Part shown: positions 3,176 to 61,801 of the stretch, piece by piece
How positions within the stretch are numbered: position 1 is the first letter of the stretch
How the letters are laid out: every line of letters begins with the position of its first letter
Notes under the pieces: generated by a model
Seen by the model: the letters and a program-made list of their open reading frames with translations, nothing else
Database searches by the model: none
Told to the model about the DNA's origin: nothing
IMG/VR virus record: IMGVR_UViG_3300024308_000302
Coordinates: 186,001 to 250,000 of that record
Origin: a virus
DNA: 64,000 nucleotides
Strand: one strand, 5' to 3'
Translations under genes and position numbers: made by a program

Positions 3176-4018
3176 ATGAAGCATTATGAACATGTCCAAA
3201 TTTTTGAATTTGATAAGCTCAATTATGAAAGTATTGAAAACAAAATAAATGCATCAAAAATGGACATCAAGTTTGATATTGATATTTTAAAATCAATTAT
3301 GACTTCATTCAAAGAAGAATTTTTGGTATCTCAAAAAGAAGATATTTCTATATTTGTAACTATTCAAATCACTAATAAAACAAAAAAAGAAATTTATATA
3401 GAATTCGATTCAAAAGAAGTGATTGCTCCACATATATCAATAATTAAAAAGAAATATGAAATAACAAAACGTCTTGATGAATTTAAACACGAAAATCCAA
3501 AAAAAATGTTTATTGGATTCATGGATAAATTAATGGGTGAAGAAACATGTAGTTTAAGTGATAAGAATTACGAAGTTATAAGCCATGATACAAATAAAAA
3601 AATTCCTATTATTTTGAAAAATGCAAAATGGATAGAAAAACTAATAAAAAGCCCAGATAAATTATATACTTCAATTATTAAAAACGGAATTTATACACAT
3701 GAAAAAAGAGTTACTTCTGGAATGTTCCTTATTGACTATAACAAATATGTAATCAGAGTAAGGACTAAACTTAAACACGAAGTGCTAAACACAAAAGAAT
3801 CTGTATTATGTATTAAGATGGAATTATCATCACCAATATACTGTGAAATTACAATTTACGATCAAACTATTGTGATATATAAAAAGGATCTTGATAAAAT
3901 AAAGATTACTAATGTACAAAAGGCAATCTGTGCATTAATGGCAATGAAAGGTTTTGAGATAGATAGTTTTGAAGAGTTTTATGATGTATTGTTAATTGAA
4001 GAAATGAAACTTATCTAA
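3176..4018 (+). CDS. C-terminal-tag protein, group A
   Basis: A 280-residue protein with no signal peptide, preceded by a GAGG ribosome site. Its start (MKHYEHVQIFEFDKLNYE) resembles the genes at 37448 and 43693 (MKYIE..LF...K.NY). All three also have a Y-x-Q-x-h-x-I-x-Y segment about 60 residues before the end. It finishes IEEMKLI, the signature shared by 17 proteins here. Cytoplasmic by prediction; function unknown. Confidence 0.85.
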   Translation: MKHYEHVQIFEFDKLNYESIENKINASKMDIKFDIDILKSIMTSFKEEFLVSQKEDISIFVTIQITNKTKKEIYIEFDSKEVIAPHISIIKKKYEITKRLDEFKHENPKKMFIGFMDKLMGEETCSLSDKNYEVISHDTNKKIPIILKNAKWIEKLIKSPDKLYTSIIKNGIYTHEKRVTSGMFLIDYNKYVIRVRTKLKHEVLNTKESVLCIKMELSSPIYCEITIYDQTIVIYKKDLDKIKITNVQKAICALMAMKGFEIDSFEEFYDVLLIEEMKLI

Positions 4019-4034
4019 TTAGTTTAAACAAAAA

Positions 4035-4062
4035 CAAAAAAAAGAGCCGTGAGGCTCTTTTC
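4035..4062. terminator. Bidirectional terminator
   Basis: Perfect 8-base stem AAAGAGCC/GGCTCTTT with a GTGA loop, flanked by A- and T-runs, between convergent genes at 3176 and 4065. Confidence 0.85.
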
Positions 4063-4064
4063 TT

Positions 4065-5459
4065 TTACTCTTTATCTAACAAAGTTGACATCAATCCAAT
4101 TGGTCGTCCAGTGGAACCATTATGGTCACTTGTACCAGCAATGTCTAAATGAACCCATTTTTCTTTTGGAGCAAATTCACGAAGGAAAACAGCACCATTA
4201 GTAGCACCAGCACCTTGACCTAAGCAAAGGTTATTTAAGTCTGCTACATCACTATCCAAGAAGTGTTTATAATCATCACTCAATGGAAGTCTCCATACAG
4301 TATCACCTGACTCAATGCCTGCTTCAATAAACAGTGCTGACAACTCATCATCTTCTGTAAATAAACCAGAGTGAACATGGCCAATAGCAGAAATAACAGC
4401 ACCAGTTAGCGTTGCAAAGTCAACAGTCAATGCACCATTGAATGTTTGAGCATGACAAAGAGCATCAGCAAGAACAAGACGGCCTTCTGCATCAGTATCT
4501 TCTACTTCAATAGTTTTTCCATTTTTTGCAGTAATAACATCACCCGGTTTCAAAGCACCTGCATCTGGCATATTTTCACAAGTTGCAATGATAGCAACAA
4601 CATTCTTTTTGGAATTAGTACGAATTGCATAAAGCAAAGTACCAAGAACGGTTGCAGCACCACCCATGTCACCTTTCATACGGCCCATGCCCTTCGATGG
4701 TTTGATAGAGATACCACCAGAATCAAAAGTAAGACCTTTACCAACTAAGACAATAGGATCATCACCTTCTTTGCCACCATTGTATTCAATAGTTAATAGG
4801 TGTCCTTCTTCTACTGAGCCTTTTGATACAGCATACAAAGATCCATAACCTTTTTCTTCAAGTTCTTTTCCACTTACAACAGAGACTTTAGTTTTATTAC
4901 TAAGTCCTGCAACTCGCTTGCCTTCTTCAACCAAAACAGTTGGGGTAAGATAATTTGATGGCATATCAATCAATTTCTTTTTAAGAAGAATTGCTTCTGC
5001 TAATGCAACGCCAAAAGACAGGTCTTTTTCAAAAGCTCCAATATCAGAAGAATCATTAAAAAGCAACGAAATATTTTTAGGTGTTACAGCAGTAGTGTTT
5101 GTTTTTGCTGACCAAGGAACAGAATTTTTAACAACAATAGATGATACAAGTTTTTTCATATCAATCAAATCTGAAATTACACAAATATCAGTAATATTTG
5201 ATGGTAATTTACTGATAGCGTTACCAATGGCATCTTCTACTTTTTTAGAATTTTTAGATAAGTGAACAAATGAGTAGTAAACACCAGAATAAAAAATAGA
5301 AAAATCTGATTTATCCAAATACTGGGTCAAATCTTTAGGAATATCAGGGTGAATATCAATCCCATCTTCACTAGATGAAAAAGTCGTTACAATTGCTTGT
5401 GATTTTGAAATGGCAGTAACGATTGAAACAGAAATGTTATTAAATTTATTGTCTAGCAT
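4065..5459 (-). CDS. pepA: M17 leucyl aminopeptidase
   Basis: A 464-residue cytosol aminopeptidase that removes N-terminal residues from peptides with two bound metal ions. The C-terminal half has the family blocks KGLTFDSGG and DTDAEGRLVL. K241, D246, D264, D323, E325 and R327 have exactly the spacing of the metal-binding and catalytic residues of E. coli PepA (K282, D287, D305, D364, E366, R368). The usual NTDAEGRL reads DTDAEGRL here. The N-terminal half is diverged. The start has a GGAGA site. No peptide-metabolism neighbours; single-gene unit. Confidence 0.96.
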   Translation of the reverse strand: MLDNKFNNISVSIVTAISKSQAIVTTFSSSEDGIDIHPDIPKDLTQYLDKSDFSIFYSGVYYSFVHLSKNSKKVEDAIGNAISKLPSNITDICVISDLIDMKKLVSSIVVKNSVPWSAKTNTTAVTPKNISLLFNDSSDIGAFEKDLSFGVALAEAILLKKKLIDMPSNYLTPTVLVEEGKRVAGLSNKTKVSVVSGKELEEKGYGSLYAVSKGSVEEGHLLTIEYNGGKEGDDPIVLVGKGLTFDSGGISIKPSKGMGRMKGDMGGAATVLGTLLYAIRTNSKKNVVAIIATCENMPDAGALKPGDVITAKNGKTIEVEDTDAEGRLVLADALCHAQTFNGALTVDFATLTGAVISAIGHVHSGLFTEDDELSALFIEAGIESGDTVWRLPLSDDYKHFLDSDVADLNNLCLGQGAGATNGAVFLREFAPKEKWVHLDIAGTSDHNGSTGRPIGLMSTLLDKE

Positions 5460-5755
5460 ATAATCTCCTATAAATGCACAAGTATTCTACAGAAAAAAAA
5501 TGAAAACATCAAGAAATAAAAAACAATATAAGTGTAATTGGTGGTTATAATAACCACAAAAAAACATGCATTGTCTCTTTAAAATTGACAATTATGGTTA
5601 ATATAATTCGATTGGTAATCACACCATTACTATTGAGAAAAAAGGATTTTTTTAGTGTTTACATGTATAAAAAAAAGATTATAGTGTAAAAATATACTTA
5701 TACATATTAACTAATATTGTATAAGATATTAATTCATTTAAATATAAAAGGTTTT
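5460..5755. other. Divergent intergenic region with palindrome
   Basis: 296 bases between pepA and the gene at 5756. It contains a perfect palindrome, GTGGTTAT-A-ATAACCAC, at 5541-5557 with TATAAT inside it, which could be an operator over a promoter. The rest is A+T-rich promoter-like sequence. A 31-codon frame from 5594 lacks a ribosome site and is not called. Confidence 0.5.
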
Positions 5756-6109: not shown

Positions 6110-6136
6110 AAATAAAAAAGATTAAAGGAGACTATT

Positions 6137-8904: not shown

Positions 8905-9882
8905 TTAGTACCGCATAATTTGATACAAATCAATATCTTTCATTGTCAACGATTCAACATCAGTATTGGTCTTGTCAGATATTTCATACTTCAAACGTTC
9001 AACTGTTTGATTATAAATATCATCTAAGCTTTCATAGTTTTCATGCTGCCTAAGCATGGAGTTACTTGTGAAAGAAACAGTTGTTTTAACAGCATCATCA
9101 AAAACTCTAACATGGAAATGACAAGCATTAGAGCGATAGCCATATGAAAGCTCAAATACCAAGTTGGAATCTTTTACATTGCTGATTCTGTCATTAAAAA
9201 TGATATATACGGGAGTGTCAGCATTTGGATCATCTACAATCTTAAAATAGAAATTCATCAAGCTTAGTTGTTGTTTTATTTTTGATTTCAAATCACCAGT
9301 GAATACTGTATTAACAAAATAAATCAACTCATCAAATGTATAAAAATTATGAACTGTCCGTGTAAGAACTTTAGCCATTTGAGATGGTGGAATATAATTA
9401 ATTCCAAGTTTTTTCAACTTGTCAGTAACAACTGATGTAGTTGACTGATTTAACAACATATTCAATTCTTTAAAGTTTTTTGTTTTGGGATAAATAATAT
9501 CACTCACAGTTTTCAATAGTGAAAGATAGCGAGTTTCAAGGGCAGCTTCATTTTCGATGAAAGCCTGATGTGCAATAACTGTATGTTTCCCGTTTTCCAA
9601 ATTAATCGAGCACCCCGGAAACGGTTGATAAACAATTCGGCTTGTAGAGACTTCAATATTTGATTGAAAATACTCGAAACCACTGACCTTACTATAAAGT
9701 TTAGACAATGATTCCATTTGAGACAAAGAACGCTCTGATACATCAAGAAATGGGGCCAAATAAGCATACAAATCTTTATTTGTTTTCAAAAAATATCGTT
9801 TTTCAACATTTCGATCAATGATCCCATTTTTTTTCACATAATCTTCAATGAACATGAAAACTTTAAAATATAAGTATTCCAT
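8905..9882 (-). CDS. C-terminal-tag protein, group B
   Basis: 325 residues from the ATG at 9882 (GGAG six bases upstream); a TTG four codons earlier is less likely. Shared group B features are a central NFKELNMLL segment, SLMNFYFKIV, SLDDIYNQTVERL about 45 residues from the end, and the terminal LYQIMRY, where Met is shifted one place. The stop of the upstream paralogue (9895) is 12 bases before this start, so the two form a tandem operon. Cytoplasmic by prediction; function unknown. Confidence 0.85.
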   Translation of the reverse strand: MEYLYFKVFMFIEDYVKKNGIIDRNVEKRYFLKTNKDLYAYLAPFLDVSERSLSQMESLSKLYSKVSGFEYFQSNIEVSTSRIVYQPFPGCSINLENGKHTVIAHQAFIENEAALETRYLSLLKTVSDIIYPKTKNFKELNMLLNQSTTSVVTDKLKKLGINYIPPSQMAKVLTRTVHNFYTFDELIYFVNTVFTGDLKSKIKQQLSLMNFYFKIVDDPNADTPVYIIFNDRISNVKDSNLVFELSYGYRSNACHFHVRVFDDAVKTTVSFTSNSMLRQHENYESLDDIYNQTVERLKYEISDKTNTDVESLTMKDIDLYQIMRY

Positions 9883-9894
9883 ACAATGCTCCAA

Positions 9895-10896
9895 TTAACA
9901 GGCGTACATCTGTAAAAGTAATAAGTGATTAAAGGTTAGGTCTTTAACATCTACTTCCAAGTGGTCACTAACATAACCAGAGAACTGCTCTAATATATAC
10001 AGATAAATTTCATCAAACGAGCTAACATATGGTTCACAATTGTCAAAAGAAAATTCAATATGGTCATCAGAAAAAATAATCTCAAAACCGAAATGTACTG
10101 GGCTTTCATGAATTACCATCTTAAATAAATAATTACTATTCAAATACTTATTAAAAGATAGAGACGAACAAAATTTCATATTGATTGGTATATTCAAATT
10201 CAAAATCTTTTCAATGAACTTAACAAGTTCTATGATCTGATTAAATCTGGCATAATCAGTATCCGTTAAATAATTATACAGTATATCTAAAGATTCATCT
10301 AAGGCAATAACATTGTTAGTTGTGACATGCTTTCCAACCATGTCCAACAAATGAATGCCATTATAGCACAAATACCTTTTGCGAACAACATCCCAACTGG
10401 ATAATGGCAAAATATCTGTGATACTTTTAAAGGTAAAAATTGAAGAATGTAGACTACTTTTTATTTTTGATAGCAATTCATTATATTTGTTTTCAAACAA
10501 TTTATTATTGTTGACAAGAGAAGAAATATGAAATTCAGTACCAGCTAAATAAATTGTTACATTCTTTTTAAAATAGACATATCTTACTTTTATGTAAAAA
10601 TTGGGTTCCAATAATGATATAGATGCATAATTATCAAGCCAACGAACAGAAGCTGAATCTTTTCTTTTGTTATTAATTAAGTTATAGAAATAAATAAGAG
10701 AATATAACTGCATAATTAAATGATGATTAACATTAATCAAGTTTCCAACATACATTGCCATAGAAGGATTCATATCAAATGAGAATCCATTATAAGCAGA
10801 AGTAAATTTGCATTCAGGAATTATTTCAGGAAGGCGATGGATTACATCACTATCAATGATAGGTGGATGAATAAAATTATCAGACATAGTATCCAT
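9895..10896 (-). CDS. C-terminal-tag protein, group B
   Basis: A 333-residue soluble protein with a GGAG site five bases before the ATG. It has the group B landmarks TFKSITDILPLSSWD, FNQIIELVKFIEKI and SFDEIYLYILEQ, and ends LLLLQMYAC. It is first in a two-gene operon with the paralogue at 8905, driven by the promoter at 10918-10946. I recognise no catalytic motif. Confidence 0.86.
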   Translation of the reverse strand: MDTMSDNFIHPPIIDSDVIHRLPEIIPECKFTSAYNGFSFDMNPSMAMYVGNLINVNHHLIMQLYSLIYFYNLINNKRKDSASVRWLDNYASISLLEPNFYIKVRYVYFKKNVTIYLAGTEFHISSLVNNNKLFENKYNELLSKIKSSLHSSIFTFKSITDILPLSSWDVVRKRYLCYNGIHLLDMVGKHVTTNNVIALDESLDILYNYLTDTDYARFNQIIELVKFIEKILNLNIPINMKFCSSLSFNKYLNSNYLFKMVIHESPVHFGFEIIFSDDHIEFSFDNCEPYVSSFDEIYLYILEQFSGYVSDHLEVDVKDLTFNHLLLLQMYAC

Positions 10897-13682: not shown

Positions 13683-14774
13683 TTATAAAATTAACATTTC
13701 ATGTATTTTTAAGTCTGGTAATCTGAAATCATCTCGATGCATTTGAAAAGTCTTCTCCAGTCTCAAAATAAGATTTTCTTTTAAATGGTCATAGATAGAA
13801 TCTAAATCAGTTAGAACAATTTGATTTATTGGATCATAAAATTCTATTGTTCCATCATCAAAAAGTAAAATAGATTCTCGACAATCTAAATTTAAATTAA
13901 CTCCAAAATGAAACTGATAAAACTGATTCAATTCTGCATATTTTGATGTTTTATTGAACGTTATACTAAAATGGTTAGAAACACACTCGCTCCATTTAAT
14001 ATCTCTTTTGAAAAATGTTTCTTGAAAAGACGTTAAAGCAACAATGTTTTTTAATTTTTTTGCAAATGATTCTGAGAAACTATCTTTTAAAAAGGAATTG
14101 AAAGTTTTTAAATCTACAGTAACAGTATGTTGTCCAAGATTCATGCAGTTTATAAAAATACTTGAATCGTCAACTTGGTAACGTTTAATGAAGTCTGTTA
14201 ACGATACAATTTTCAGATCGGTGTTAATTAAACGACTGTTTATAAAATTCACATTAGACATTTTATTAATTTCAAAAAAATGTTTAAAGGTCTTAACATT
14301 TGAATTAAGTGCTTTCTTTATATCTGATAAAATTTCATTATATGCGACCTCATAATCATTAGTATAAACCATAAGAGAATACGCCATTTCAAATGATAAA
14401 TTTAAATTAGAATTTTGTTTTTTACATTGACTATAAAGTGTTAAAAAGTAATAGTAATCATGATCAAAAATCTCAAATAAAGAAAATTCAAAACTTAAAC
14501 AATCACCATTATAAACCAGATTAATATAAACATCTAAGTTTTCAAGCCCTTGTATCAAAGCTAAAAAACTATTGGCAAAAATATATTGATTAATTAATGA
14601 TGAATTAGATTTTGTTAAATTAGAAATAAATTGTATTACAATAGGATTTGAATAAACAGAATAATAAAAATGTTTTCTACCACCACGTATAATTTCTTGT
14701 TCAATTAACGGTAATTCGTGTTTAGAAACTAAATCTTTGAACTGACATATAATATCATTTTCGATGCCTGTCAT
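13683..14774 (-). CDS. C-terminal-tag protein, group B
   Basis: A 363-residue soluble protein with a GGATT ribosome site. Group B landmarks are TFKHFFEINKMSNVNFINSR, LKNIVALTSFQETFF, DLDSIYDHLKENLILRL and the end LKIHEMLIL. It follows the methyltransferase gene by 12 bases and is probably co-transcribed with it. No enzymatic motif seen. Confidence 0.85.
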   Translation of the reverse strand: MTGIENDIICQFKDLVSKHELPLIEQEIIRGGRKHFYYSVYSNPIVIQFISNLTKSNSSLINQYIFANSFLALIQGLENLDVYINLVYNGDCLSFEFSLFEIFDHDYYYFLTLYSQCKKQNSNLNLSFEMAYSLMVYTNDYEVAYNEILSDIKKALNSNVKTFKHFFEINKMSNVNFINSRLINTDLKIVSLTDFIKRYQVDDSSIFINCMNLGQHTVTVDLKTFNSFLKDSFSESFAKKLKNIVALTSFQETFFKRDIKWSECVSNHFSITFNKTSKYAELNQFYQFHFGVNLNLDCRESILLFDDGTIEFYDPINQIVLTDLDSIYDHLKENLILRLEKTFQMHRDDFRLPDLKIHEMLIL

Positions 14775-20390: not shown

Positions 20391-20409
20391 AAGAGGTCGA
20401 AACCTCTTT
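20390..20409. terminator. Bidirectional terminator
   Basis: 8-base stem AAAGAGGT/ACCTCTTT with a CGAA loop between convergent genes 19890 and 20408. Confidence 0.85.
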
Positions 20410-21343
20410 AGTATTCAATCATTTCTTGGACTAACAACCTATCGTCCCATTTATTAACATCAAATTGTTCTGGATGGTAAGCTGATGGAATATAAAGTTC
20501 TGGTAATACTTCAGACCATTTGGCATAGTTATAGCCTACATATTTCAGAAGTTCGTATAAACCTTGTTTCAATGAGCTTTTATTATATGATTTATTAAAA
20601 GACTCTTTAGACCACCCATTAAAATTAACTAAAATAACTAAATTTTCATTTTCTAAAGTCATTTTTACAATAGTCTGATTATAACAATTAATTAAACAAA
20701 CTTTCGTATTAAGAATAGAATAGTCATCATTAAAATAAACTTCAATTTTATATGTAAGCAACATGCCTTCACCGCCATCAAAGATTGTTCTAAACAAACG
20801 TTTGTTATCATCATCAATATTAAGATTAAATGAGATTACAAAACTAGTATTATTAGCGATGAGCCGTTTGTTATTAAAAATGCCAAAACCAGCATCGAAA
20901 TCTACATTATTAAGAATTGCTGAGCAGACTTCTTCCTTATCAGATTTTGATACGTTAAAATAATCAAAGGTAATACTCAAATTATCAGAAATCAATTTTC
21001 TATTGGATTCGTTTAGCATAAAAGCTTTTTTGTGATTTTTAATTATAAGTTCATTAGTAGCAATATCAAAATCTTTATCACGCATATCATAGACTGAAAA
21101 ACCATTATTCTCATATAAAACATATACAAATCTTTTCTTTTTTTTCAAAGAATTCACAATATAATAGTTTGCCTGTATCGTTCTTTTAGATCTTTCAAAA
21201 ACTTTTTCTTGATCAATGCTATCTTTAATTTTTGAACAATCAAAAATATTTGGCAACATAACAATAATGTGTTTACCAACATACCAGTTTAATTCATCTA
21301 TTGTTTTAAAATTTTTAACAAAGGTTGCATAGTCTCTAAACAT
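20408..21343 (-). CDS. C-terminal-tag protein
   Basis: 311 residues from the ATG at 21343 (AGAGA upstream, MFRDYATFVKNFKTIDELNW). An in-frame extension to 21403 would add a spurious hydrophobic stretch. The protein is soluble, beta-rich in the middle, and ends RLLVQEMIEY, the shared signature. Internal similarity to group B is weak. Function unknown. Confidence 0.82.
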   Translation of the reverse strand: MFRDYATFVKNFKTIDELNWYVGKHIIVMLPNIFDCSKIKDSIDQEKVFERSKRTIQANYYIVNSLKKKKRFVYVLYENNGFSVYDMRDKDFDIATNELIIKNHKKAFMLNESNRKLISDNLSITFDYFNVSKSDKEEVCSAILNNVDFDAGFGIFNNKRLIANNTSFVISFNLNIDDDNKRLFRTIFDGGEGMLLTYKIEVYFNDDYSILNTKVCLINCYNQTIVKMTLENENLVILVNFNGWSKESFNKSYNKSSLKQGLYELLKYVGYNYAKWSEVLPELYIPSAYHPEQFDVNKWDDRLLVQEMIEY

Positions 21344-21487
21344 GATATGATCTCTAATAAAAATTAACATTATTATACCAATATACAAAGGGAATAACAA
21401 CAAAATTAAAAATAAATATTAATAAAAAAAAGTAGACTGATAATCTGATTGGATGTATAATACACATTCACATTATGGAGACTACTA

Positions 21488-21876: not shown

Positions 21877-22932
21877 TTAATAAGTCATCATCATAAACAA
21901 ATCAACATCTTTAATAGTTATTTTAGAACTATCTATGCCAAGTTTATTACTTAATAATTCAGTAATTAATGTCAGATAATGATCATATATATCATTTAAT
22001 GTATCTAAATAAACAGGAATATATAATAGTGGATTAGAATAATAAAATGTCCCATCAGAAAATAACTCTAAACTTATATGTGGATGAGATTTATAAGTAA
22101 GAATAAATTGTCTATTATAAGATTGAAATTTTAATGGTTTAACAAAACATATATCAATAAAATCAGCTTTTTTATTATGTTCGAGATTATAATAAAATTG
22201 CATTATTGATAATACTTGATTAAATTCTTTAAAAGTTTCCTTTGGTAAGAAATTTTTAACAATACTTGAAAATTGATAGTATTGAAGACGATAAAAATGA
22301 TCATTATTGAATTCATTAACTCGTTCAAGTATTTTATACTCATCTGGAATACAAGTATGTGCCATATAAGACATGCCAGATTTCTTTATTTCTTCACTCA
22401 TCAAGTAATATGATTCATTTTTTACATAATGCATCAATGATTTCATATCTTTAATATTAGGATTTAGTTTAGATTTAATGCTATTAAATGAGTATTCATA
22501 TGCAGCATCAAAATTAAAAGAATCAGAAAATTGTTTGTGGCTATTAGTCAAAAACAGTTCATAATTAGAAACACTATTATTATTGATTGATAAGTTAACG
22601 ATATCTATTCTATTGTTTCTATACATGTTATTAGAAATAAGATAAAAAATTGAATGTTTAGAAATACCAATTCTCACTTTAATAACAGTTGGCAAATCTC
22701 GCATGAGATAAACTAGTTGATTTAAGGAGACAAACTGTTTAAGAAAGCTTTTAGGTATATTGATTATTTCGTATAAATGATTGACAACATCATCGTTAAA
22801 ATCCAAAAGGAATTCTTGATTCTCTGTTGAGGAATTAACAATGACTAATTTATCTTTAGACAACTGTAGTTCTATCAATTTCTTAGCACTATCTACAATA
22901 TCATCAAATAATGCTATTTTATAATCAGACAT
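21877..22932 (-). CDS. C-terminal-tag protein, group B
   Basis: A 351-residue soluble protein with an AAAGGAG site. Group B landmarks are DMKSLMHYVKNESYYLMSEE, FKEFNQVLSIMQFYYNLEHN and TLNDIYDHYLTLITELL, and the end DVDLFMMMTY. It lies 22 bases after the gene at 22955, likely one operon. No catalytic motif recognised. Confidence 0.86.
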   Translation of the reverse strand: MSDYKIALFDDIVDSAKKLIELQLSKDKLVIVNSSTENQEFLLDFNDDVVNHLYEIINIPKSFLKQFVSLNQLVYLMRDLPTVIKVRIGISKHSIFYLISNNMYRNNRIDIVNLSINNNSVSNYELFLTNSHKQFSDSFNFDAAYEYSFNSIKSKLNPNIKDMKSLMHYVKNESYYLMSEEIKKSGMSYMAHTCIPDEYKILERVNEFNNDHFYRLQYYQFSSIVKNFLPKETFKEFNQVLSIMQFYYNLEHNKKADFIDICFVKPLKFQSYNRQFILTYKSHPHISLELFSDGTFYYSNPLLYIPVYLDTLNDIYDHYLTLITELLSNKLGIDSSKITIKDVDLFMMMTY

Positions 22933-23564: not shown

Positions 23565-23585
23565 CAAAAAAGAGGCTACTGCCTC
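23565..23585 (-). terminator. GAGGC-type terminator
   Basis: GAGGC/GCCTC stem with a TACT loop overlapping the stop of 23584. Confidence 0.8.
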
Positions 23586-27328: not shown

Positions 27329-27988
27329 TCAAACTTTAGTCATCTGCAAAATAATATGATCTTTCAATCTGATGTCATTTAAATTTATGTTAAGTGGTTG
27401 GCAAGCAAATTCAATTAAAAATGTATCAATCATATGTTGTAGTGATAGATAAGTATAAATATCTTTTCCAATATAAGCAAGGAATCGATGAGACAACACA
27501 ACTTTATTATTTGAAATATCAAAAAAGAACCTGATATAAATTCCTATATGCATTTCACTGACAAAAGCATTAATGGGGTCTAATCGATTAGGCGTACCTA
27601 TTATTTTTTTTCTAATATATTTATTATAATTATTATCTGATGTATATTTTGTATTCTGAAATAAGAAACAGTTTAAAAATAGAAGCTTATTATCAATGTC
27701 ATGAATAGCAGTTTTAATATCAAGTTCGAGAGATTGTGTTAACGGAATATTAAAAATATCCTGAACAACATCAAAATCAACATCAGAAATAAAATCTATC
27801 ATGTAATCATCACCAGACTTAATGATTTCAAACCTACAGTGCTCATGTAATGAATCAAAGATCATAAAAAAGACAGGAATCTTATTTGGTGAATCATCAG
27901 TAACAATAGACATCGTATAGTCTTGACGATTATATTCAAGGTTTTTAAATTTTTCTTTTAATGCCTCTAACACCTTAAAATTTTTCAT
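27329..27988 (-). CDS. C-terminal-tag protein, short
   Basis: A 219-residue soluble protein (MKNFKVLEALKEKFKNLEYN) whose start overlaps the end of 27975-28802 by 14 bases, so the pair is co-translated. It ends DHIILQMTKV, the shared C-terminal signature. Similarity to longer members beyond the tail is weak. Function unknown. Confidence 0.82.
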   Translation of the reverse strand: MKNFKVLEALKEKFKNLEYNRQDYTMSIVTDDSPNKIPVFFMIFDSLHEHCRFEIIKSGDDYMIDFISDVDFDVVQDIFNIPLTQSLELDIKTAIHDIDNKLLFLNCFLFQNTKYTSDNNYNKYIRKKIIGTPNRLDPINAFVSEMHIGIYIRFFFDISNNKVVLSHRFLAYIGKDIYTYLSLQHMIDTFLIEFACQPLNINLNDIRLKDHIILQMTKV

Positions 27989-30698: not shown

Positions 30699-31331
30699 TC
30701 AAACAAAAATCATTTCAATAAGCGAAATTGTATTTTTCAAAGAATCAACATTATCAAATGACAAATCTTCGTTCATCTTAGTTTTGAAGATGTTTTTAAT
30801 CTTACTCTTTGTAGAATCTGAGGCTGATTCGAAGTCATCAGCAAACATATTCATAAGTTTATAGAAAACAACCTTTAATTCATCAAATGATTTAAAAGGA
30901 GTCATACTTAAAGCAGGTTTATTATCTAGAAATGCTCTAACAGTTAAATTGTTTTTTTTGTACTGAGAGCATTGAAATAATATCTTTTTCCCTAAAACAG
31001 TAGCTGGCATTTGAATGAAGTGATCTGAATAATCTAAATCATCTTTAAAGAATTCTGATTGTGCAAATATATCATTAGAAATAATACGAAGTCCAGAATC
31101 ATCATACCAATACAATAAAGCATCTGACAAAACAATGTTATACAAAGATTTTTGGCTTTCCAAACTTAATATATATCGAACATCATTAGACTTCTGATGA
31201 ATGCTGAAACTAAATACTGGAATTTCATTAATGAAACAATACTCAAAAATAGTGAGATTATTTTTTAAAGAAATTATTTTGTCAGATAGCATAACTAAAT
31301 ACAGTTGACTAACAATTGAATTAAGCTGCAC
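30699..31331 (-). CDS. C-terminal-tag protein, short
   Basis: 210 residues from a GTG at 31331 that has GGAG six bases upstream; another GTG at 31343 has none. A soluble protein (QLNSIVSQLYLVMLSDKIIS) ending NTISLIEMIFV, the shared signature. Internal similarity to other members is low. Function unknown. Confidence 0.78.
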   Translation of the reverse strand: MQLNSIVSQLYLVMLSDKIISLKNNLTIFEYCFINEIPVFSFSIHQKSNDVRYILSLESQKSLYNIVLSDALLYWYDDSGLRIISNDIFAQSEFFKDDLDYSDHFIQMPATVLGKKILFQCSQYKKNNLTVRAFLDNKPALSMTPFKSFDELKVVFYKLMNMFADDFESASDSTKSKIKNIFKTKMNEDLSFDNVDSLKNTISLIEMIFV

Positions 31332-31390
31332 ATTAGACTCCACTATATAAAATATTAAGTATTATAACAAAATCAATAAAATTTGTAAAC

Positions 31391-33679: not shown

Positions 33680-34711
33680 TTAAATATAAGCCATTTGATA
33701 TAATTCTAAATGTTCTTTCGTAAAGTCTTCAAGTTTGATACCAAGATCTGATAACAAGCCATCCCTGTAAAGGGCTAACAGATAATCATACAATGAATTC
33801 AAATTATTAAATTTTACAGTATTAAACTTTCCATCAGTGTCATGATAAGTTAATATGTATTTCTCAGGATCTTCAATAATACTAATAGAAATATATTTGC
33901 TATCACTCCAGACACTCGATGAATTGAAGTCATGAAAACATATTGAATATATAGAATGAGTAAAATGTTTGTTATTTGCAAATATTTTATTTAAATTATC
34001 AGTTTCAAAATCAAAGTTAAAATAAGTTCCATTAAGTGATTTATTCAAAGCTACTGCAGAAAAATTAATTAAAGAAAATATTTGATTAAATATACGACAG
34101 TCATCTGAAGGAAAAATTTTAGCAGTGATACTTGTCATTTCATTATAGTTAAGTGGATTAGAAGTATCAATTGAGAAGTCTTTCAAACACTCTTCTTTTG
34201 TGTACATATTCATATTTAAAGATTTAATACGTTCATCAAATAAAACATATCTATCCATACAACGAATTCGATTCAAATCTTTAAGGGTTTTAATTGTCGG
34301 ATGAAAAGTAATTAATTCAAGCGAAAATTGATAAATATTTTCAAATGTAGACTTCTCACTATATGAACGAACATGCCAACCATCAGCCAAAGTAAAAAGA
34401 ATACTTAATTCAAGCGTGATATCTATAAGAATGTGATTTTCAAAAATAAAAAGTTCACTTTTTTGATTGAATTTTTGAGGAATAGGGGCTTCTGATTCTA
34501 TATAATGCTTGAATTGAACCAAAGCGTGCTGTTGAAGCATAGAAGATGCTGATAACCCAGTTAAATCTTTAAGATAATAAGCAAATTCTTTATTAAAATT
34601 GAAAGAATAATAATCATACTTATCATAAATTAAAGAATGCTCAAAATCATTTTTGGATGATCCAATAAATATTTTCAATTTTTCGTAAATATCATAAATA
34701 AATTGATTCAT
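33680..34711 (-). CDS. C-terminal-tag protein, group B
   Basis: A 343-residue soluble protein with GGAGG upstream. Group B landmarks are TLKDLNRIRCMDRYVLFDER, IFNQIFSLINFSAVALN and NLNSLYDYLLALYRDGL. It ends HLELYQMAYI. It is the clearest member next to 21877. Divergent from the membrane protein gene at 34837. Function unknown. Confidence 0.87.
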   Translation of the reverse strand: MNQFIYDIYEKLKIFIGSSKNDFEHSLIYDKYDYYSFNFNKEFAYYLKDLTGLSASSMLQQHALVQFKHYIESEAPIPQKFNQKSELFIFENHILIDITLELSILFTLADGWHVRSYSEKSTFENIYQFSLELITFHPTIKTLKDLNRIRCMDRYVLFDERIKSLNMNMYTKEECLKDFSIDTSNPLNYNEMTSITAKIFPSDDCRIFNQIFSLINFSAVALNKSLNGTYFNFDFETDNLNKIFANNKHFTHSIYSICFHDFNSSSVWSDSKYISISIIEDPEKYILTYHDTDGKFNTVKFNNLNSLYDYLLALYRDGLLSDLGIKLEDFTKEHLELYQMAYI

Positions 34712-35510: not shown

Positions 35511-36155
35511 ATGATAGAAATTAAAGATATTGCAAGCTTGAAAGAAGCATTAACTACAGACAGTCAATCAGGTCTGTTTGTTAAGCCTTTGAAAGAATTT
35601 ATTAAAGAAGGTATTGTAATGGATTCTGGAACTAGACCAGAGTATCGATATCCATTAGATGAAGATGCTAATGAAATATTATTATTCCAAGTGAAAAAAT
35701 CTGTTATTACATTCAAAAGTTATATGAAAAAAATAAATGAAAATTATCAATATCATAGATCAAATGACTTACCAGCTACTATCACATACAACGATAATGG
35801 GTATCCTTTTTTTTATCAATGGTTTATTGAAGGATATAAATGTAGAGACAACGTAATGAAACCAATCACTGTTGAAAACAATGGTGATGAATTCTGGCAT
35901 TTCAAATACCAATATGATATCAGTGAAACACATCTACTTGCAGTCGCAAATATTACATATATTCATTCTAAACGACAAGATAAGCTAAGAGATATAGCTA
36001 TTGAGTGTAATGGAACATATATAGATTATAATTTAGAAAAAGCAAAAAGAATGGTGCCAGAAATTGATGACATTAAATTTGAAGATTGCTTTGATTTAAG
36101 TAAAAATATATTCACCGAAGATTATATTACAGTAATTGAAATGGCAAACATATAA
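35511..36155 (+). CDS. C-terminal-tag protein with HR-PA-W repeat-like segment
   Basis: A 214-residue protein with AAAGG upstream. Residues 81-113 (YHRSNDLPATITY, then FYQWFIEGYKCRDN) match the HR..PA.....G...W...G..hR pattern of YwqK-like repeats common in phage and bacterial proteins. It nevertheless ends YITVIEMANI, the signature carried by otherwise different proteins here. This makes it useful evidence that the tail is portable. Function unknown. Confidence 0.82.
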   Translation: MIEIKDIASLKEALTTDSQSGLFVKPLKEFIKEGIVMDSGTRPEYRYPLDEDANEILLFQVKKSVITFKSYMKKINENYQYHRSNDLPATITYNDNGYPFFYQWFIEGYKCRDNVMKPITVENNGDEFWHFKYQYDISETHLLAVANITYIHSKRQDKLRDIAIECNGTYIDYNLEKAKRMVPEIDDIKFEDCFDLSKNIFTEDYITVIEMANI

Positions 36156-37447: not shown

Positions 37448-38281
37448 TTAAATGTTTTTCATTTCTTCTATTATTAAAAAATCTTTAAGTTCTGCAATGG
37501 AATTAACATTGACATTGTTTATTTTGAACATTGAAAATATAAGATTTCGAAAAGCACAAAAATCAGATTGAATAAATTCATCATAAGGAATAGTGAGTGA
37601 TTGATTATAAACAAATATATTACACGTAATATAATATTCGTTATATTGAATATGTTCTTTAACTCTAAATGAAAGAATAGTATCTTTAGCATTATTATTC
37701 ATTTTAGCTTTGCTATCAAATCTAATTTCAGCAACAGAAAAAGTTATTTCGAATTCATCATAAGGATCTTTAAATACTTCACCATATAAGCCATAATCAT
37801 ATATTGATTTAAATATAAATCCTTCAAACTCAAAAATGTTATCTATTTGCTTTAGTGCATGCAATAATTTACCAGAATTTAAAAAACAATAATTTCTGTA
37901 ATAGTTATTAGATGATGATGCTTCTAAATAATCAACCATAAACATACGAAAAATGTCTATGGCTGATTTACCATCAATAAAAAGATCTTGTATGTATATA
38001 TTAATAGTTATGATGCTAGGAACTAACTTTAAATGACGAAATAAAGAATGCTCTTGTTCAAATGAAATATATAATCTACCATCATTAACTTCAAAAGTAA
38101 CACGAATAGAAAAATCATCCTTGTAAACAATCTTAGACTCATCTTGGACAATTTTAAAAAGGTCAATAATTTTATCAGAATTTACAATTTCTAAATTTTG
38201 AATTGAATTAATATATTTAACAACTGCATCACAATTAACAGTATGCAGTTTAAATAATGAAGTTGATTCAATATATTTCAT
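37448..38281 (-). CDS. C-terminal-tag protein, group A
   Basis: A 277-residue soluble protein starting MKYIESTSLFKLHTVNCD, very like 43693 (MKYIEKTTLFNIDKINY) and 3176. Shared near-terminal segment VYNQSLTIPYDEFIQSD and ending DFLIIEEMKNI. It is 14 bases after 38296-39003 and probably co-transcribed. No enzymatic motif seen. Confidence 0.86.
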   Translation of the reverse strand: MKYIESTSLFKLHTVNCDAVVKYINSIQNLEIVNSDKIIDLFKIVQDESKIVYKDDFSIRVTFEVNDGRLYISFEQEHSLFRHLKLVPSIITINIYIQDLFIDGKSAIDIFRMFMVDYLEASSSNNYYRNYCFLNSGKLLHALKQIDNIFEFEGFIFKSIYDYGLYGEVFKDPYDEFEITFSVAEIRFDSKAKMNNNAKDTILSFRVKEHIQYNEYYITCNIFVYNQSLTIPYDEFIQSDFCAFRNLIFSMFKINNVNVNSIAELKDFLIIEEMKNI

Positions 38282-40255: not shown

Positions 40256-41017
40256 TCAAATACAAATCATTTGTAACAACTCAATTTTTTGCTCAATACT
40301 CATATCATCAAAATCACTACATTTACTACCATGTGTAGAAATAATAAGCTCATCAATAACAGATTCAATATTATAATTGAAATCTTTGTCCACGTCTACA
40401 ATTTTGTTTGCGGCCCAAAAATCTTCTTCAAATAAAGTTTCATTTTTAACTAAATAAGCCTTTTTATTTTTTAAATTAAATGCAACCTTAAATTCTTGCT
40501 CTTTTTTAGAAAAAATTGTAATAAATGGAATACAAACAATATCATTTTGTTTATTAAACTTAAAAGATATATAAATACGACAGTTCGCCTTAAAACCATC
40601 AATAAAAGAATTAATAATAAAAAAATCATAAAGAACAAATTCAGTAGTCTTATTGAAAGAATTATTATACAAAACACAATCAGAGTTGAACTTTTCAAGA
40701 GACTGAAAAGTTTGTTTAAATATATTATGTTGATTTAATGAATTTAAAAAAAGATCTATAGTTTGAAAAGAATGTTTATAATTATTCATATCAAAAAGAT
40801 TTCTTATTTCAGATTCATTATCATTAGGGCCAGACACCCCAATTATGTACCCAGAATTATGAGAAATTGTCATAGATAAATCTTCTCTACCAGAAGAATT
40901 AAAAGCCCTTAAAATACAATGCGAAGGGCCATTATTCAAAGAAAGTTCACTATCAGGGTAATGCCTTGAAAAAAATAAGTTAGCTTGTGCTAAAATAGAA
41001 GATTGATTATTTGGCAT
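40256..41017 (-). CDS. C-terminal-tag protein
   Basis: A 253-residue soluble protein (MPNNQSSILAQANLFFSRHY) with TAGGTG upstream. Beta-rich middle (ANCRIYISFKFNKQND), then DMSIEQKIELLQMICI at the end, which fits the shared signature. Internal match to groups A and B is weak. Function unknown. Confidence 0.83.
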   Translation of the reverse strand: MPNNQSSILAQANLFFSRHYPDSELSLNNGPSHCILRAFNSSGREDLSMTISHNSGYIIGVSGPNDNESEIRNLFDMNNYKHSFQTIDLFLNSLNQHNIFKQTFQSLEKFNSDCVLYNNSFNKTTEFVLYDFFIINSFIDGFKANCRIYISFKFNKQNDIVCIPFITIFSKKEQEFKVAFNLKNKKAYLVKNETLFEEDFWAANKIVDVDKDFNYNIESVIDELIISTHGSKCSDFDDMSIEQKIELLQMICI

Positions 41018-42900: not shown

Positions 42901-43671
42901 TTAAATATACATCATTTTAAAAACAGTAATGTCATCATCTACCATATCATCAATCTTTTTGCCTAACACTGGTAAAGTATATTCAACTTCCATGAAGTCC
43001 TTCAGTTTAGAAGCAAATTTATTATCTGGTGTTTTTAACACTTTTCTTACAAAGTTGATTCGTCTATATTCTACTTTTTCATTAAAAGTAAAAGAGTAAT
43101 AGATAACATATTTAAATACATCAGAAAATATGACACTACCTCTTTTTTGTACAGAATGACGTAATGTATTGTTTACATCCAACATATCACCAAGCAATTT
43201 ATTGTAGAAGTCAACGACTTTCAAATCTACATCAGTATAGGTATTAACACTATATGACTGTTTAAATGAATCTTTCAAATAAATATCACTAATGTCTATT
43301 TCTAAGTCTCGTGGCAATCCATTATTGTAGATTGTAAATGCAGCCGTTAGTAATAAAGTCTCACCAGTAGGCTCAATTGTCGCTTCATAGACAACAGAAA
43401 GAGAGTCAAGACCTGTAGACCAAATACTGGTATTTACAAATAATTCTTTGTAAAAAATGTTATGACGATTATCAAATAGATCGTCTAGGTGTTCATATTT
43501 ATCTACTGGAACAATATTTTTGAGTTGTTCTTTATTAAGTGTTGATAGGTTTTCAATAAATATATTTTCTTTTTTCAGGCGAACAATTGCATTATCAAAT
43601 ATTTCTTTTTTCGTTTTAGAAATATATGTACCTAATGTATTAAAATTAGTAAATTTTTGATTTTTAGTCAT
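42901..43671 (-). CDS. C-terminal-tag protein
   Basis: A 256-residue soluble protein (MTKNQKFTNFNTLGTYISKT) with GAGAG upstream. Beta-rich centre (LSVVYEATIEPTGETLLLTA). It ends DDITVFKMMYI, the shared signature. It lies 21 bases after the group A gene at 43693, so two tagged proteins share one operon. Function unknown. Confidence 0.84.
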   Translation of the reverse strand: MTKNQKFTNFNTLGTYISKTKKEIFDNAIVRLKKENIFIENLSTLNKEQLKNIVPVDKYEHLDDLFDNRHNIFYKELFVNTSIWSTGLDSLSVVYEATIEPTGETLLLTAAFTIYNNGLPRDLEIDISDIYLKDSFKQSYSVNTYTDVDLKVVDFYNKLLGDMLDVNNTLRHSVQKRGSVIFSDVFKYVIYYSFTFNEKVEYRRINFVRKVLKTPDNKFASKLKDFMEVEYTLPVLGKKIDDMVDDDITVFKMMYI

Positions 43672-43692: not shown

Positions 43693-44514
43693 TTAAATGT
43701 CCATCATTTCTTGTAATGTAAATTCATTTTTCAAATCAGAAATATTTGAAATGTTCATTTTTTTAAGTTTAAGGACAGATACAATTGCAGTTTCAATTAA
43801 TTCATTATCTGCTGACATGAACTCATCATATGTCAACATAAGTTCTTGTCCATACATATAGAAATATAAAGCATATTTTTCAGGTACATGAATATCATTT
43901 GCTGGATTAAAAAGAAATTTAATAGAAAATGTATTATTACTGAGCTTAAAAATAGATGAAGAATATTCAACTTCAAATAAATCAATAATTTTTTTTGATT
44001 CTTCTGGATAAAATTTGTTACTAACAACTGTATTGAATAAACTATCATTTAAAATTAAAAGAGAATCAATTTTTTTGATTGCTGATAAAATACAATTAAA
44101 ATTTGCTTTTGAATAATGGTTTTTAATGTCGCCATAAATAAAACCAATATAATGTCTACAAAATTCATTAAAAAGATATTCTCCTGAAAGTTTTCCTTTT
44201 CGTGAGTCATAAAATGTAACATTAAAAAAATCATAATCTGTATGCTCATTATTAATTTGTGGCAATAGTTTGCCATCTGTCTCAAAAAGAATATTTAAAG
44301 ATGGGTCAAGATTGCCAGAAATTTCAAAAATAATTGTTACAGGAAAATCAACTTTGTTACTCACAAGCGATTCAGACTTAAGAAGAGTCAAAAATTCAGC
44401 TAGAATATCTAAATCAATAGTAAATTTTTTCTTAGACTCTGTATTTTTTTTACCAAGTGCTACATAATTGATTTTATCAATATTAAACAGTGTTGTTTTT
44501 TCGATATATTTCAT
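43693..44514 (-). CDS. C-terminal-tag protein, group A
   Basis: 273 residues from the ATG at 44514, chosen because MKYIEKTTLFNIDKINY aligns with the start of 37448; an extension to 44550 adds 12 unrelated residues. MYGQELMLTYDEFMSAD precedes the end EFTLQEMMDI. First of a two-gene unit with 42901. Cytoplasmic by prediction; function unknown. Confidence 0.86.
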   Translation of the reverse strand: MKYIEKTTLFNIDKINYVALGKKNTESKKKFTIDLDILAEFLTLLKSESLVSNKVDFPVTIIFEISGNLDPSLNILFETDGKLLPQINNEHTDYDFFNVTFYDSRKGKLSGEYLFNEFCRHYIGFIYGDIKNHYSKANFNCILSAIKKIDSLLILNDSLFNTVVSNKFYPEESKKIIDLFEVEYSSSIFKLSNNTFSIKFLFNPANDIHVPEKYALYFYMYGQELMLTYDEFMSADNELIETAIVSVLKLKKMNISNISDLKNEFTLQEMMDI

Positions 44515-44570
44515 AAATAGTCCACAGATAATTTCTTCGTATATTACCAAAAAAGAATTAATAAATCAAT

Positions 44571-44595
44571 AAAAAAGATGCCTAAGCATCTTTTA
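44571..44595 (-). terminator. Rho-independent terminator
   Basis: AAAGATGC/GCATCTTT stem with a CTAA loop after the gene at 44593. Confidence 0.85.
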
Positions 44596-47924: not shown

Positions 47925-48000
47925 GTTTAAATTATTATTTGATTGTATTTTTATATTGTAACATATAAACAAGAAAAAAATAGACTAAAAAAAACAATAA

Positions 48001-56040: not shown

Positions 56041-56177
56041 TGTTTTTGGCAGTTTCTCCGAATATTCACGCTTCTTCTAAGAAGTGGTGACACCCAAATA
56101 ACCGTCCAAGGTACATCATTTTTTGTTCTTGTTGCGACTGTCAAACTTACCAAAGCATGGAAGCCCGAAATCCTTTC
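56022..56177. repeat. Parental copy of duplicated RNA ligase 3' region
   Basis: 156-base block matching 53201-53357: terminator, non-coding stretch with inverted repeats at 56071-56084, and the final codons of the ligase gene. Confidence 0.9.
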
Positions 56178-56911: not shown

Positions 56912-57559
56912 TCAAATAATTAACATCCTGAGTGTAATTAGATTATTTTCAAATTCACTAGTATTAATACGATAAGCACCATCAAAGTACCATTCTGGAA
57001 ACAATTCCTTTGTAATTTCTTTATCATCATTGAGAAATACTTCAAGAAGCCTAAATTCATCATCTAATGGACAAAGCATATTACGATGCTTAGTAACGTT
57101 CAAAACAATATCTTGACTTGATTTTGATTTAAGATAATGAAGCGATTGATATTCAAAGTTGCTATCATATGAAATTGAGATTTTGTAACCTAACATGCCA
57201 GATTTAGAGCATCTTTTTACAATCGTATAAGATAAATCGACATTTGATATAATACCATTATTGTCAGTAGTAACTATACAATTACTTCCAAAAACAATAT
57301 TACTATTAAGCTGTTTTAAAAAATGAGAAATAGGCAATATCGGACTTAAACCAGTTAGCTCGATTTTTTGATTGTTGTAGGCATAAAACTTATCAAAATT
57401 TTTGATATTCTGTTGTTCGCTCATAAAAGAACTGTCAAATTTATTGAATACCAATCGTGCAATATTGCTTACAAAAGATTGAGCTTGTTTCTTTTTTTTC
57501 ATAGCTGCATCATAGTTTTCTTGATAAACACTATAATTTGATTTTAAGGTAGGCGTCAT
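56912..57559 (-). CDS. C-terminal-tag protein, short
   Basis: A 215-residue soluble protein (MTPTLKSNYSVYQENYDAAM). It ends NLITLRMLII, the shared signature. The middle has GSNCIVTTDNNGIISNVDLS. It lies 14 bases after 57574 and is probably in one operon with that gene and 57764. Function unknown. Confidence 0.82.
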   Translation of the reverse strand: MTPTLKSNYSVYQENYDAAMKKKKQAQSFVSNIARLVFNKFDSSFMSEQQNIKNFDKFYAYNNQKIELTGLSPILPISHFLKQLNSNIVFGSNCIVTTDNNGIISNVDLSYTIVKRCSKSGMLGYKISISYDSNFEYQSLHYLKSKSSQDIVLNVTKHRNMLCPLDDEFRLLEVFLNDDKEITKELFPEWYFDGAYRINTSEFENNLITLRMLII

Positions 57560-59505: not shown

Positions 59506-59515
59506 AATATAACAT

Positions 59516-60559
59516 TTAAAATCTTGCCATTTTTAAAATTTCAAAATCTTTAATATTGATTTCTTCTGCTGCAATATCCAAATTTTTCTTAAAAATCTCA
59601 GCAATATCATCCCTAAGAGCCTTATGAATATTATCAACACCATCAAAAGAGATTGTTTTAAAATTATGTGATGATCTAATATCAATTTTTCTATAAGAAA
59701 TAAAATGATTTTCAGTAGTAACAACAAAAAATCTATGAAAATCCGATGGAGTATCTTCAATATTTATAGTATAACAATCATAATGGTCTTTAAATTTATT
59801 AGGATCAATCTCTAAAGTAATAAATCCTTTCAATGAATTAAATTCTTGTTTACTACCTGTCAAATTTATATAAAAAGCCAATGGATAAAATACTGAAACA
59901 ATATCATCTAATTTAGACTTTGAAAAAAATGGACTTAAAGCTTTTCTTATTGATTTTGGATGCAAATCAAATTTAATCGAATTTGAACCATCATTTGTTT
60001 CAATATATTTACTTTTTAATTCATCTTCACTCATGTAAACAAAAGAATTATCAGGAATTTTTGATGTAATAATATCTACATAATCCAAAGCCAATTTATC
60101 AATAAATTCTTTTAAAGTAATATTTTTTGGCATAATATCTTGTAATTTTCTTAAAAGTTCTGAATAGCACTTATCATAAGCAGAACCAGCCAACATTTCA
60201 CTAAAGGTATATCTATTATTAAAGAGATCAATATAAATATTTTCAAGGGTCTGATTTTTTCTAATAGCAAATTTAAGATCCCCAAAGAAAAAAACTAATT
60301 TATCTATATAAAACCCAACACAAACTTTATCTGCTTTTTTTTGAAGATCCCCATAAAGAACAGATGAACGAAGATCTGACAAATTTTTTAATTGATCAAA
60401 TTTTCGATAATCAATTTTAAACATTTCATCAAGAAATATAAAAGTATTTGCATCTGCTTCGAACATATAGACATCAGAATTTATACTGGAAGATTTCATT
60501 TTTGAGAAATCATAAAGTTCATGAAGACGTTCTTTTTTTTGAGTCATAAGATCTGTCAC
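59516..60559 (-). CDS. C-terminal-tag protein, group B
   Basis: 347 residues from a GTG at 60559 with GGAGG seven bases upstream. This start aligns VTDLMTQKKERLHELYDF residue for residue with the beginning of 60710-61801. A frame extending to 60640 is not supported. Shared blocks are IDYRKFDQLKNLSDL, TLKEFIDKL, NSFVYMSEDELKSKY and GVDNIHKALRDDIAEIF, and it ends DFEILKMARF. Function unknown. Confidence 0.86.
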   Translation of the reverse strand: MTDLMTQKKERLHELYDFSKMKSSSINSDVYMFEADANTFIFLDEMFKIDYRKFDQLKNLSDLRSSVLYGDLQKKADKVCVGFYIDKLVFFFGDLKFAIRKNQTLENIYIDLFNNRYTFSEMLAGSAYDKCYSELLRKLQDIMPKNITLKEFIDKLALDYVDIITSKIPDNSFVYMSEDELKSKYIETNDGSNSIKFDLHPKSIRKALSPFFSKSKLDDIVSVFYPLAFYINLTGSKQEFNSLKGFITLEIDPNKFKDHYDCYTINIEDTPSDFHRFFVVTTENHFISYRKIDIRSSHNFKTISFDGVDNIHKALRDDIAEIFKKNLDIAAEEINIKDFEILKMARF

Positions 60560-60611
60560 AAGTGTACCTCCAAATATCCAAATATAAAATGAATTTAAAC
60601 TTTGAGCTATG

Positions 60612-60640
60612 ATTATATCAATATAGGGAAAAATTTGCAA
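60612..60640 (-). promoter_or_regulatory. Sigma70-type promoter with extended -10
   Basis: Minus strand TTGCAA, 17 bases, TATAAT preceded by TGA, before the GTG at 60559. Confidence 0.7.
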
Positions 60641-60654
60641 TATTTATTCAGAGA

Positions 60655-60682
60655 ATAAAAAATACCACTCGAAAGTGGCATC
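60655..60682 (-). terminator. Rho-independent terminator
   Basis: CCACT/AGTGG stem with a CGAA loop and T-run, about 30 bases after the gene at 60710. Confidence 0.75.
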
Positions 60683-60709
60683 TTATGTAAATTATGTAAC
60701 TGAAGAACA

Positions 60710-61801
60710 TTAGAAACTAATCATAGTAATCAGTTCAATATCTTGATTACTAATATCTTGCTGTTCAATGTTTAATTTCTCCTTAAACACATTGGCAATA
60801 TCCTTTTTAAGTTCATTGTATACAGCATCAATACCTTTAATTTTAGTTACCTCATAACTTTGAGTAGCAATATTGATGCGATCTCTATGATTAGTATTAT
60901 AAGAAATAAAATAATCATCAGTAGTAATACCAATAGATCGATATTTCATAATATTGGAGAAATGCATAGTTTCAGGCATATCAATACCCATAAAGTAACA
61001 ATCATGATGTCTACTAAATTTATTTATACCATTCAAAGGTCCAATATAACCATGAAGTTCCTCAAACTTACCAGATGGATTATCAACAAGAGATAAAAAC
61101 GCAAAATGAGAAAGCACAAATACTATATGATTTAATTTGTCTGTCGGGAAAAACGGTTTCAATGCTTGTCTAATTTCTGCTGGTTTCAACCCAAATTTTC
61201 TAATAGCAGTAGCCATATTAGAATCATCATAATCATCAGAAACATTAGAATATTTTTCAATAAATTCTTCATTATCAACATATACAAAAGCATTATCAGT
61301 AATAGAAGCATTAATAATGTCTTTGGGAGAAGATTTATTTTTAAAATTAAATTCGGCTAATGTGATATCAGATGGTAATAGGGAATTCAATTCTTCCAGT
61401 TTTTTTTGATAGTATTCTTCATAAGCTGAATTATCAATAAAAGAATTAAATGAAAAGAAAGTTTCATGTATACCAATTTTTGCATTTTCAATTTTTTGGC
61501 CACGATTAATATGAAACTTAATGTTACAGTTAAATTTTAATGTACCAGAATCAATAGCAACAATACAAGAAACTGATTTATCTATATCATGATTCCTAAT
61601 ATGCATTATAAGATTATTTAAATTTTTAATTTGATCAAGTTTCCTATAATCCAACGTAAAGAACTCATTTAAAAAAATAATAGATCGCTCATCATTCTCA
61701 AAAAAATAAAAAGTTGTACTACCAATACATTTAGTTTTTGCTGAATCAAAATCATACAGTTCACGAAGACGTGTTTCCATGAGTTGCATTACATCAATCA
61801 T
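60710..61801 (-). CDS. C-terminal-tag protein, group B
   Basis: A 363-residue soluble protein with TTGAGG upstream; tandem paralogue of 59516. Shared blocks are LDYRKLDQIKNLNNL, NAFVYVDNEEFIEKY, LNHIVFVLSHFAF and GIDAVYNELKKDIANVF. It ends DIELITMISF. The two genes have separate promoters and terminators. Function unknown. Confidence 0.87.
   Translation of the reverse strand: MIDVMQLMETRLRELYDFDSAKTKCIGSTTFYFFENDERSIIFLNEFFTLDYRKLDQIKNLNNLIMHIRNHDIDKSVSCIVAIDSGTLKFNCNIKFHINRGQKIENAKIGIHETFFSFNSFIDNSAYEEYYQKKLEELNSLLPSDITLAEFNFKNKSSPKDIINASITDNAFVYVDNEEFIEKYSNVSDDYDDSNMATAIRKFGLKPAEIRQALKPFFPTDKLNHIVFVLSHFAFLSLVDNPSGKFEELHGYIGPLNGINKFSRHHDCYFMGIDMPETMHFSNIMKYRSIGITTDDYFISYNTNHRDRINIATQSYEVTKIKGIDAVYNELKKDIANVFKEKLNIEQQDISNQDIELITMISF

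Follow-up and report, generated by a model that had tools for sequence, protein, structure and literature searches.

A portable C-terminal tag shared by diverse proteins in one clade of jumbo phages

Results

The DNA analyzed here (64,000 bases, hereafter the window; bases 186,001 to 250,000 of a linear IMG/VR virus record of 290,157 bases) is a fragment from an uncultivated jumbo phage, a relative of Xanthomonas phage XacN1, and carries 17 genes whose diverse products end in one common tail of about 14 residues. This tail is a portable, end-of-chain helical tag that selection strongly maintains within a single clade of phages, and we consider it probable (roughly 0.7) that it docks in trans.

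A sequence-only reading of the window, made without database searches, had listed the 17 genes, and each is present as an open reading frame (ORF; Table 1); together they sum to 15,051 bases or 23.5% of the window, in agreement with the earlier figure of about 23%. Counting the last residue as position -1, methionine occupies -4 in 16 of the 17 and -3 in the remaining one (8905 to 9894, YQIMRY), as that reading had claimed, whereas the hydrophobic pair that it described does not hold as a general rule, since -6 is polar in five genes (those starting at 3176, 13683, 20408, 37448, and 43693). Methionine at -4 is thus found in 16 of 82 window ORFs, compared with 2.2 expected (binomial P of about 7e-10), and is absent from all remaining nonoverlapping window ORFs. 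The other steady positions of the set are -1 (I/Y/F/V/L), -7 (L/V/I), and mostly -9 (L/I); D/E/K/Q stands at -5, and a helix cap at -11 to -13 is rich in D/N/T. By sequence the 17 genes fall into about nine groups: group A (seven genes), group B (three genes), a YwqK/MORN-like protein, and singles or pairs. Elsewhere on the contig, gene 286326 (L013:6326-7363) encodes a group A relative that has lost the tail motif (NVYFIVKYK).

Table 1. Tagged genes of the window, with coordinates counted from its first base
Protein	Coordinates	Strand	Tail	Remark
Group B	3176..4018	+	VLLIEEMKLI	
Group A	8905..9894	-	IDLYQIMRY	Shifted variant, Met at -3
Group A	9895..10896	-	LLLLQMYAC	
Group A	13683..14774	-	DLKIHEMLIL	Weakest fit, polar -6
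With extended "LPE..PSAY" C-terminal module	20408..21403	-	DRLLVQEMIEY	
Group A	21877..22932	-	DVDLFMMMTY	
Body relative not found	27329..27988	-	DHIILQMTKV	
Body relative not found	30699..31343	-	TISLIEMIFV	
Group A	33680..34711	-	HLELYQMAYI	
YwqK/MORN-like	35511..36155	+	DYITVIEMANI	Tagged orthologue in 6/6 sister contigs
Group B	37448..38281	-	FLIIEEMKNI	
Paralogue of contig gene 150775	40256..41017	-	KIELLQMICI	
Body relative not found	42901..43671	-	DITVFKMMYI	
Group B	43693..44550	-	FTLQEMMDI	
With extended C-terminal module	56912..57559	-	NLITLRMLII	Last 44 residues common to contig gene 282093
Group A	59516..60640	-	DFEILKMARF	
Group A	60710..61801	-	DIELITMISF	

The tag extends far beyond the window. 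Using the RNA ligase of the window contig (G000), we found six sister contigs (G001 to G006), one of them 437,043 bases long, and scored tags in all seven with an iterated 16-column profile on ORFs of at least 70 amino acids; as ORF calling was mechanical and ran separately over 20-kb segments, which truncated a few genes at the borders, the percentages are approximate. This profile search of the remaining genome and its relatives, proposed in the sequence-only reading as a check, brought the total to 336 tagged proteins in the seven contigs, among them about 40 on the 290-kb window contig, so that the earlier count of 17 is correct for the window and an undercount for the wider set. The tagged share of ORFs is 9.4%, 17.9%, 19.3%, 17.9%, 11.5%, 17.3%, and 19.4% for G000 through G006, respectively. 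On the window contig all tagged genes lie from 44 kb onward, and bases 1 to 44000, in contrast to the rest of the contig, hold none. In G001, 102 of 548 ORFs have methionine at -4 (14 expected; about 2 to 3% at adjacent positions), as do 63 of 268 in G006. Profiles also transfer between genomes: trained on G001, the profile detected 34 tails in G000, and trained on G000, it detected 65 in G001, where shuffled tails or internal windows would give fewer than one.

The pattern is not a general feature of C termini, a possibility raised in the sequence-only reading: no tag was found in the related or composition-matched phages XacN1 (0 of 544 ORFs), SCTP-2 (29.9% GC; 0 of 450), Atu_ph07 (0 of 264), and RaK2 (0 of 68 within 50 kb), or in contig G007 (0 of 196). 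The window is AT-rich (22 to 33% GC per 4-kb segment); a composition artifact was ruled out by SCTP-2 at about 30% GC together with the internal-window and shuffled-tail controls, with only 0.05 to 0.1% of internal windows scoring as tags. Tagged relatives outside the clade were not detected by tblastn in INPHARED, nor were any found in a genome contig collection, and a viral contig collection queried with tagged proteins returned the same contigs or nothing. The literature searched held no phage tag of comparable breadth, and our results point to a tag that has so far not been described.

Across all tagged tails the motif can be written approximately as [T/L/F][K/D/E][D/N]x[L/I]x[L/V/I][L/I/F][E/D/K]M[I/L/M]x[I/Y]-COOH. 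Its N-terminal part favors Leu/Phe/Thr at -13, Lys/Asp/Glu at -12, Asp/Asn at -11, and Leu/Ile at -9; its C-terminal part favors Leu/Val/Ile at -7, a hydrophobic residue at -6, Glu/Asp/Lys at -5, Met at -4 (95%), Ile/Leu at -3, and Ile/Tyr at -1 (I in 56% and Y in 17%), while -2 is variable. The tag is confined to the extreme C terminus and ends right at the stop codon, with few exceptions carrying one extra residue. Proline is absent from -1 to -5 and from -7 and almost so from -6, and the start of the tail resembles an N-cap (a T/S..D/E pattern), which together suggest, at the level of sequence, that the tail is a helix. Within the tag, Leu, Ile, and Glu are encoded as in the genome at large, and each of the three stop codons occurs after it, so the constraint acts on the peptide rather than on the nucleic acid; a nucleic acid motif at gene ends was rejected on these grounds. 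A recoded stop codon, prompted by two tRNAs with CUA anticodons on the contig, was likewise ruled out: TAG is an ordinary stop there, and the genetic code of the contig is standard.

The tail and the rest of the protein diverge in different ways. Trimmed of their tails, the tagged proteins form 123 sequence clusters, and most multimember clusters are tagged throughout. In tagged pairs with 10 to 30% body identity (about 27%), identity over the last 14 residues is 52%, a value somewhat inflated by the motif-based choice of the set, and is higher than that of the body in 97% of cases; for equally diverged untagged families the corresponding values are 9% and 15%. Profile comparison of the trimmed bodies gave no convincing cross-group homology, with little power for singletons. 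Not one of 114 tagged proteins matched Pfam (E of at most 1e-3) or PADLOC, PHROGs yielded weak matches for two of the 114, both to families of unassigned function, and the two body profiles searched against the PDB had no matches. Most tagged proteins are soluble and slightly acidic, with 180 to 370 residues, and they are frequently encoded in tandem arrays of diverged paralogues. An N-terminal hydrophobic stretch occurs in 5.7% of them, compared with 17.7% of untagged proteins, which disfavors a Sec/Tat or other export signal and with it the secretion signal that the sequence-only reading had listed among possible roles.

These data bear on a role of the tail in cis, in which it would be the last helix of the body or a homo-oligomerization helix, retained through common descent from one superfamily. 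Groups A and B are each true families, and up to eight body clusters (200 to 331 residues) share an extended module at the C terminus, some 45 residues in length (LPE...PSAYDFNS..F..RL.L..M..I), both of which would fit such descent; the excess of tail over body identity in nearly all distant pairs and the missing profile similarity between families would not. Predicted structures add to both sides. An AlphaFold2 model of the tandem-array family A5 (25 sequences; predicted local distance difference test score [pLDDT], 89; predicted template-modeling score, 0.84) has two N-terminal helices, eight strands, and then helices, the last of which spans 33 ordered residues (226 to 258) and includes the tag. 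In contrast, the model of the YwqK-like protein at 35511 to 36155 (nine sequences) is confident over most of the body, and its tag forms a separate helix (203 to 213) past a low-confidence linker, with the last 14 or so residues, at pLDDT 53 to 58, the least confident part. In this model the tail is among the best-conserved segments of the protein and yet the least fixed, as would be expected of a partner-binding peptide. Foldseek found no significant match to either model. The structural comparison called for by the sequence-only reading yielded two unlike architectures for two families, and a single fold for all tagged proteins was ruled out for at least these two. Taken together, we regard a cis role as improbable. 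With conserved tails, unlike architectures, and a clade-restricted motif, the earlier suggestion of a portable tag on diverging bodies is borne out.

Upstream regions offer a clue to when the tagged genes are expressed. In XacN1, ATAAATA peaks 30 to 36 bases ahead of the start codon; most occurrences lie from 80 to 260 kb, a span that includes the terminase-capsid region, and the motif is rarer in the arms. On the tagged contigs ATAAATA occurs at or below chance without a peak; there, a sigma70-like box peaks strongly at 30 to 36 bases, as ATAAATA does in XacN1. When genes that have an upstream region to themselves are considered, a sigma70-like -10 box (TATRAT) stands at the expected place in 43.6% of the tagged ones and 41.3% of the untagged ones (about 10% in shuffles). 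A promoter of their own for the tagged genes was rejected: TATGATA is modestly enriched, perhaps as a result of common descent. Given the sigma70-like boxes and the lack of ATAAATA, and by analogy with T4 late promoters, the tagged genes look early.

This early-type context speaks for a function inside the cell during host takeover rather than for late packaging. The latter could take the form of a capsid-loading signal, a C-terminal counterpart of the targeting sequence (CTS) of T4, which would direct proteins into the prohead for injection with the genome. The tandem arrays of diverged paralogues would suit such cargo, whereas the promoters are sigma70-like and lack the ATAAATA that peaks upstream of XacN1 core genes, and a fixed site of the (I/L)xE type, at which the prohead protease removes the T4 signal, is not apparent: 30% of tails have [ILV]xE spanning -7 to -5, and in the stretch preceding the tag its density per 26 residues is 0.54, compared with 0.29 in bodies. 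Moreover, the T4 signal is N terminal. We consider capsid loading unlikely; if the docking principle served another end, entry into the prohead, as seen for the internal proteins of T4, would be the foremost candidate.

Early expression would also be compatible with turnover, since early regulatory proteins are often short-lived. Here, the tail would be a C-degron, or the tagged proteins would be adaptors that bind targets and pass them to a protease of the host or the phage. Like C-degrons, the tail is C terminal, hydrophobic, and read at the chain end. However, it differs from the ssrA/LAA class in having no Ala-Ala-type ending, is acidic at -5 in most cases, and contains a conserved helix of a length unusual among degrons, which makes turnover quite improbable.

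Source contig and neighboring genes

The nearest isolate found for the window contig is XacN1, which its authors grouped with RaK2-like phages, SCTP-2, and Atu_ph07 (PMC5852040). The contig encodes phage-type RNA ligases, nucleases, and NUDIX enzymes. No Terminase_6N gene was detectable on any of the contigs, the structural half, sought with the XacN1 terminase, was not found, and homologues of the terminase-adjacent XacN1 genes (ORF258 to ORF260) lie close to the ends of G001, G003, and G006. From these observations we infer that the contigs are accessory arms and that the structural core of these genomes was assembled elsewhere. That sister contigs stop near these homologues, without a detectable terminase, also suggests that several strains occur together and that assembly broke at the core conserved among them.

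More than 30 tRNA genes lie on the contig (33 to 40, 126 to 130, and 163 to 184 kb; L002, L007, L009, and L010), many of them for tRNA-Leu(UAA) and several for tRNA-Arg(UCU). Within the window, an M17 leucyl aminopeptidase (4065 to 5459) has genome-scan matches of 33 to 46% identity in scattered bacterial phyla and hence gives no clue to the host. Two apparently paralogous two-gene cassettes lie at 23584 to 26924 and 44593 to 47972 (480/633 and 498/628 amino acids); the gene pair of the former had no convincing Pfam or PHROG match. An amino-acid-kinase family protein (28864 to 29568) and a probable RNA ligase 1-like enzyme with a KFDGS motif (56116 to 56769) are also encoded. Outside the window, L007:868-2403 encodes a prepilin-like protein, probably the match to a shufflon N-terminal family.

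Discussion

Of the roles listed in the sequence-only reading, a docking peptide appears to fit best, and late virion packaging is weakened by the early-type promoters. A helix that is detached in one family, a motif that stays constant over unlike bodies, and a strictly terminal position lead us to infer that the tail acts in trans, through one receptor. Under this reading, an alpha-helix some 14 residues long, both acidic and hydrophobic, would be recognized at the chain end by a phage- or host-encoded receptor with a conserved pocket, tying a large, fast-evolving, and otherwise unrelated protein set to a single common partner. In early host takeover, each body might then address a different host or defense target, while the constant tail would bring all of them to one hub or compartment. 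That the destination is specifically an early intracellular hub is a tentative proposal, with somewhat less than an even chance of being right. At a similarly cautious level, it is tempting to speculate that the tag is a clade-specific sorting code, in which one C-terminal helix and one dedicated receptor would bring 10 to 20% of the phage genes' products, mostly for early host takeover, to one hub or compartment.

Several points weigh against docking in trans. The structural half of the genomes is absent from all seven contigs, so the tag counts refer to the other half. Unrelated tagged pairs, chosen for the motif, already share 21% of their tail residues, which is the portion of tail identity that this choice accounts for. 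Finally, the AlphaFold2 models cover two families among more than 100 bodies, and in A5 a long ordered helix runs on into the tag, which may have a cis role in that family.

Precedents for terminal tails exist in T4, where gp55, gp33, and gp43 carry interchangeable C-terminal clamp-binding motifs, in gp55 on a divergent linker (PMC2988020). C-terminal docking tails therefore exist in the wider T4-like world, and the tag resembles these motifs in being C terminal, hydrophobic and acidic, and interchangeable between proteins. By the same precedent, the tail might tether early proteins to the DNA sliding clamp of the phage, and a partial likeness, DLxLF, is seen in some tails. Yet the consensus is another one, with a near-invariant Met at -4, and three replication and transcription proteins in T4 compare with hundreds of orphans here, where some 100 clamp clients would be implausible. 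Further, the scanned set of large ORFs, which includes an NAD-dependent DNA ligase and a polynucleotide kinase, is almost wholly untagged; homologues of gp33 and gp55 either fall beyond the contigs or escaped identification. Bacterial clamp motifs prefer Gln at the first position, whereas the residues common at -10 of the tag do not include Gln. Clamp docking is thus very improbable.

The nearest evolutionary parallel to the tag is found in the T4 internal proteins, which are diverse, counter host defenses, and are united by a conserved targeting sequence alone (PMC3012670). In both cases a short conserved terminal peptide is found on highly diverse phage proteins. The differences lie in number, a handful in T4 compared with up to 98 on one contig here, and in the C-terminal position, the lack of a clear protease site, and the lack of a late-type promoter on the tagged genes; the T4 CTS is N terminal. 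Encapsulin cargo-loading peptides are likewise short and C terminal and bring unrelated cargo into one shell, with a consensus that differs from that of the tag; no encapsulin shell was among the Pfam matches listed for the larger ORFs, no dedicated shell search having been made. Chimalliviruses, too, are jumbo phages that sort many of their own proteins; for their nuclear import (the PicA pathway), a folded surface was reported and a conserved linear signal was not found (PMC11087766), whereas a linear C-terminal motif is present here. A clear linear sorting signal in the tagged clade would make a useful contrast to chimallivirus import.

If docking holds, any protein with the tail would be predicted to meet the same partner, giving a handle on hundreds of phage proteins that cannot be annotated otherwise. 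The tail could be used as a portable targeting peptide, and the identity of its partner would reveal how the early protein arsenal of these jumbo phages is organized.

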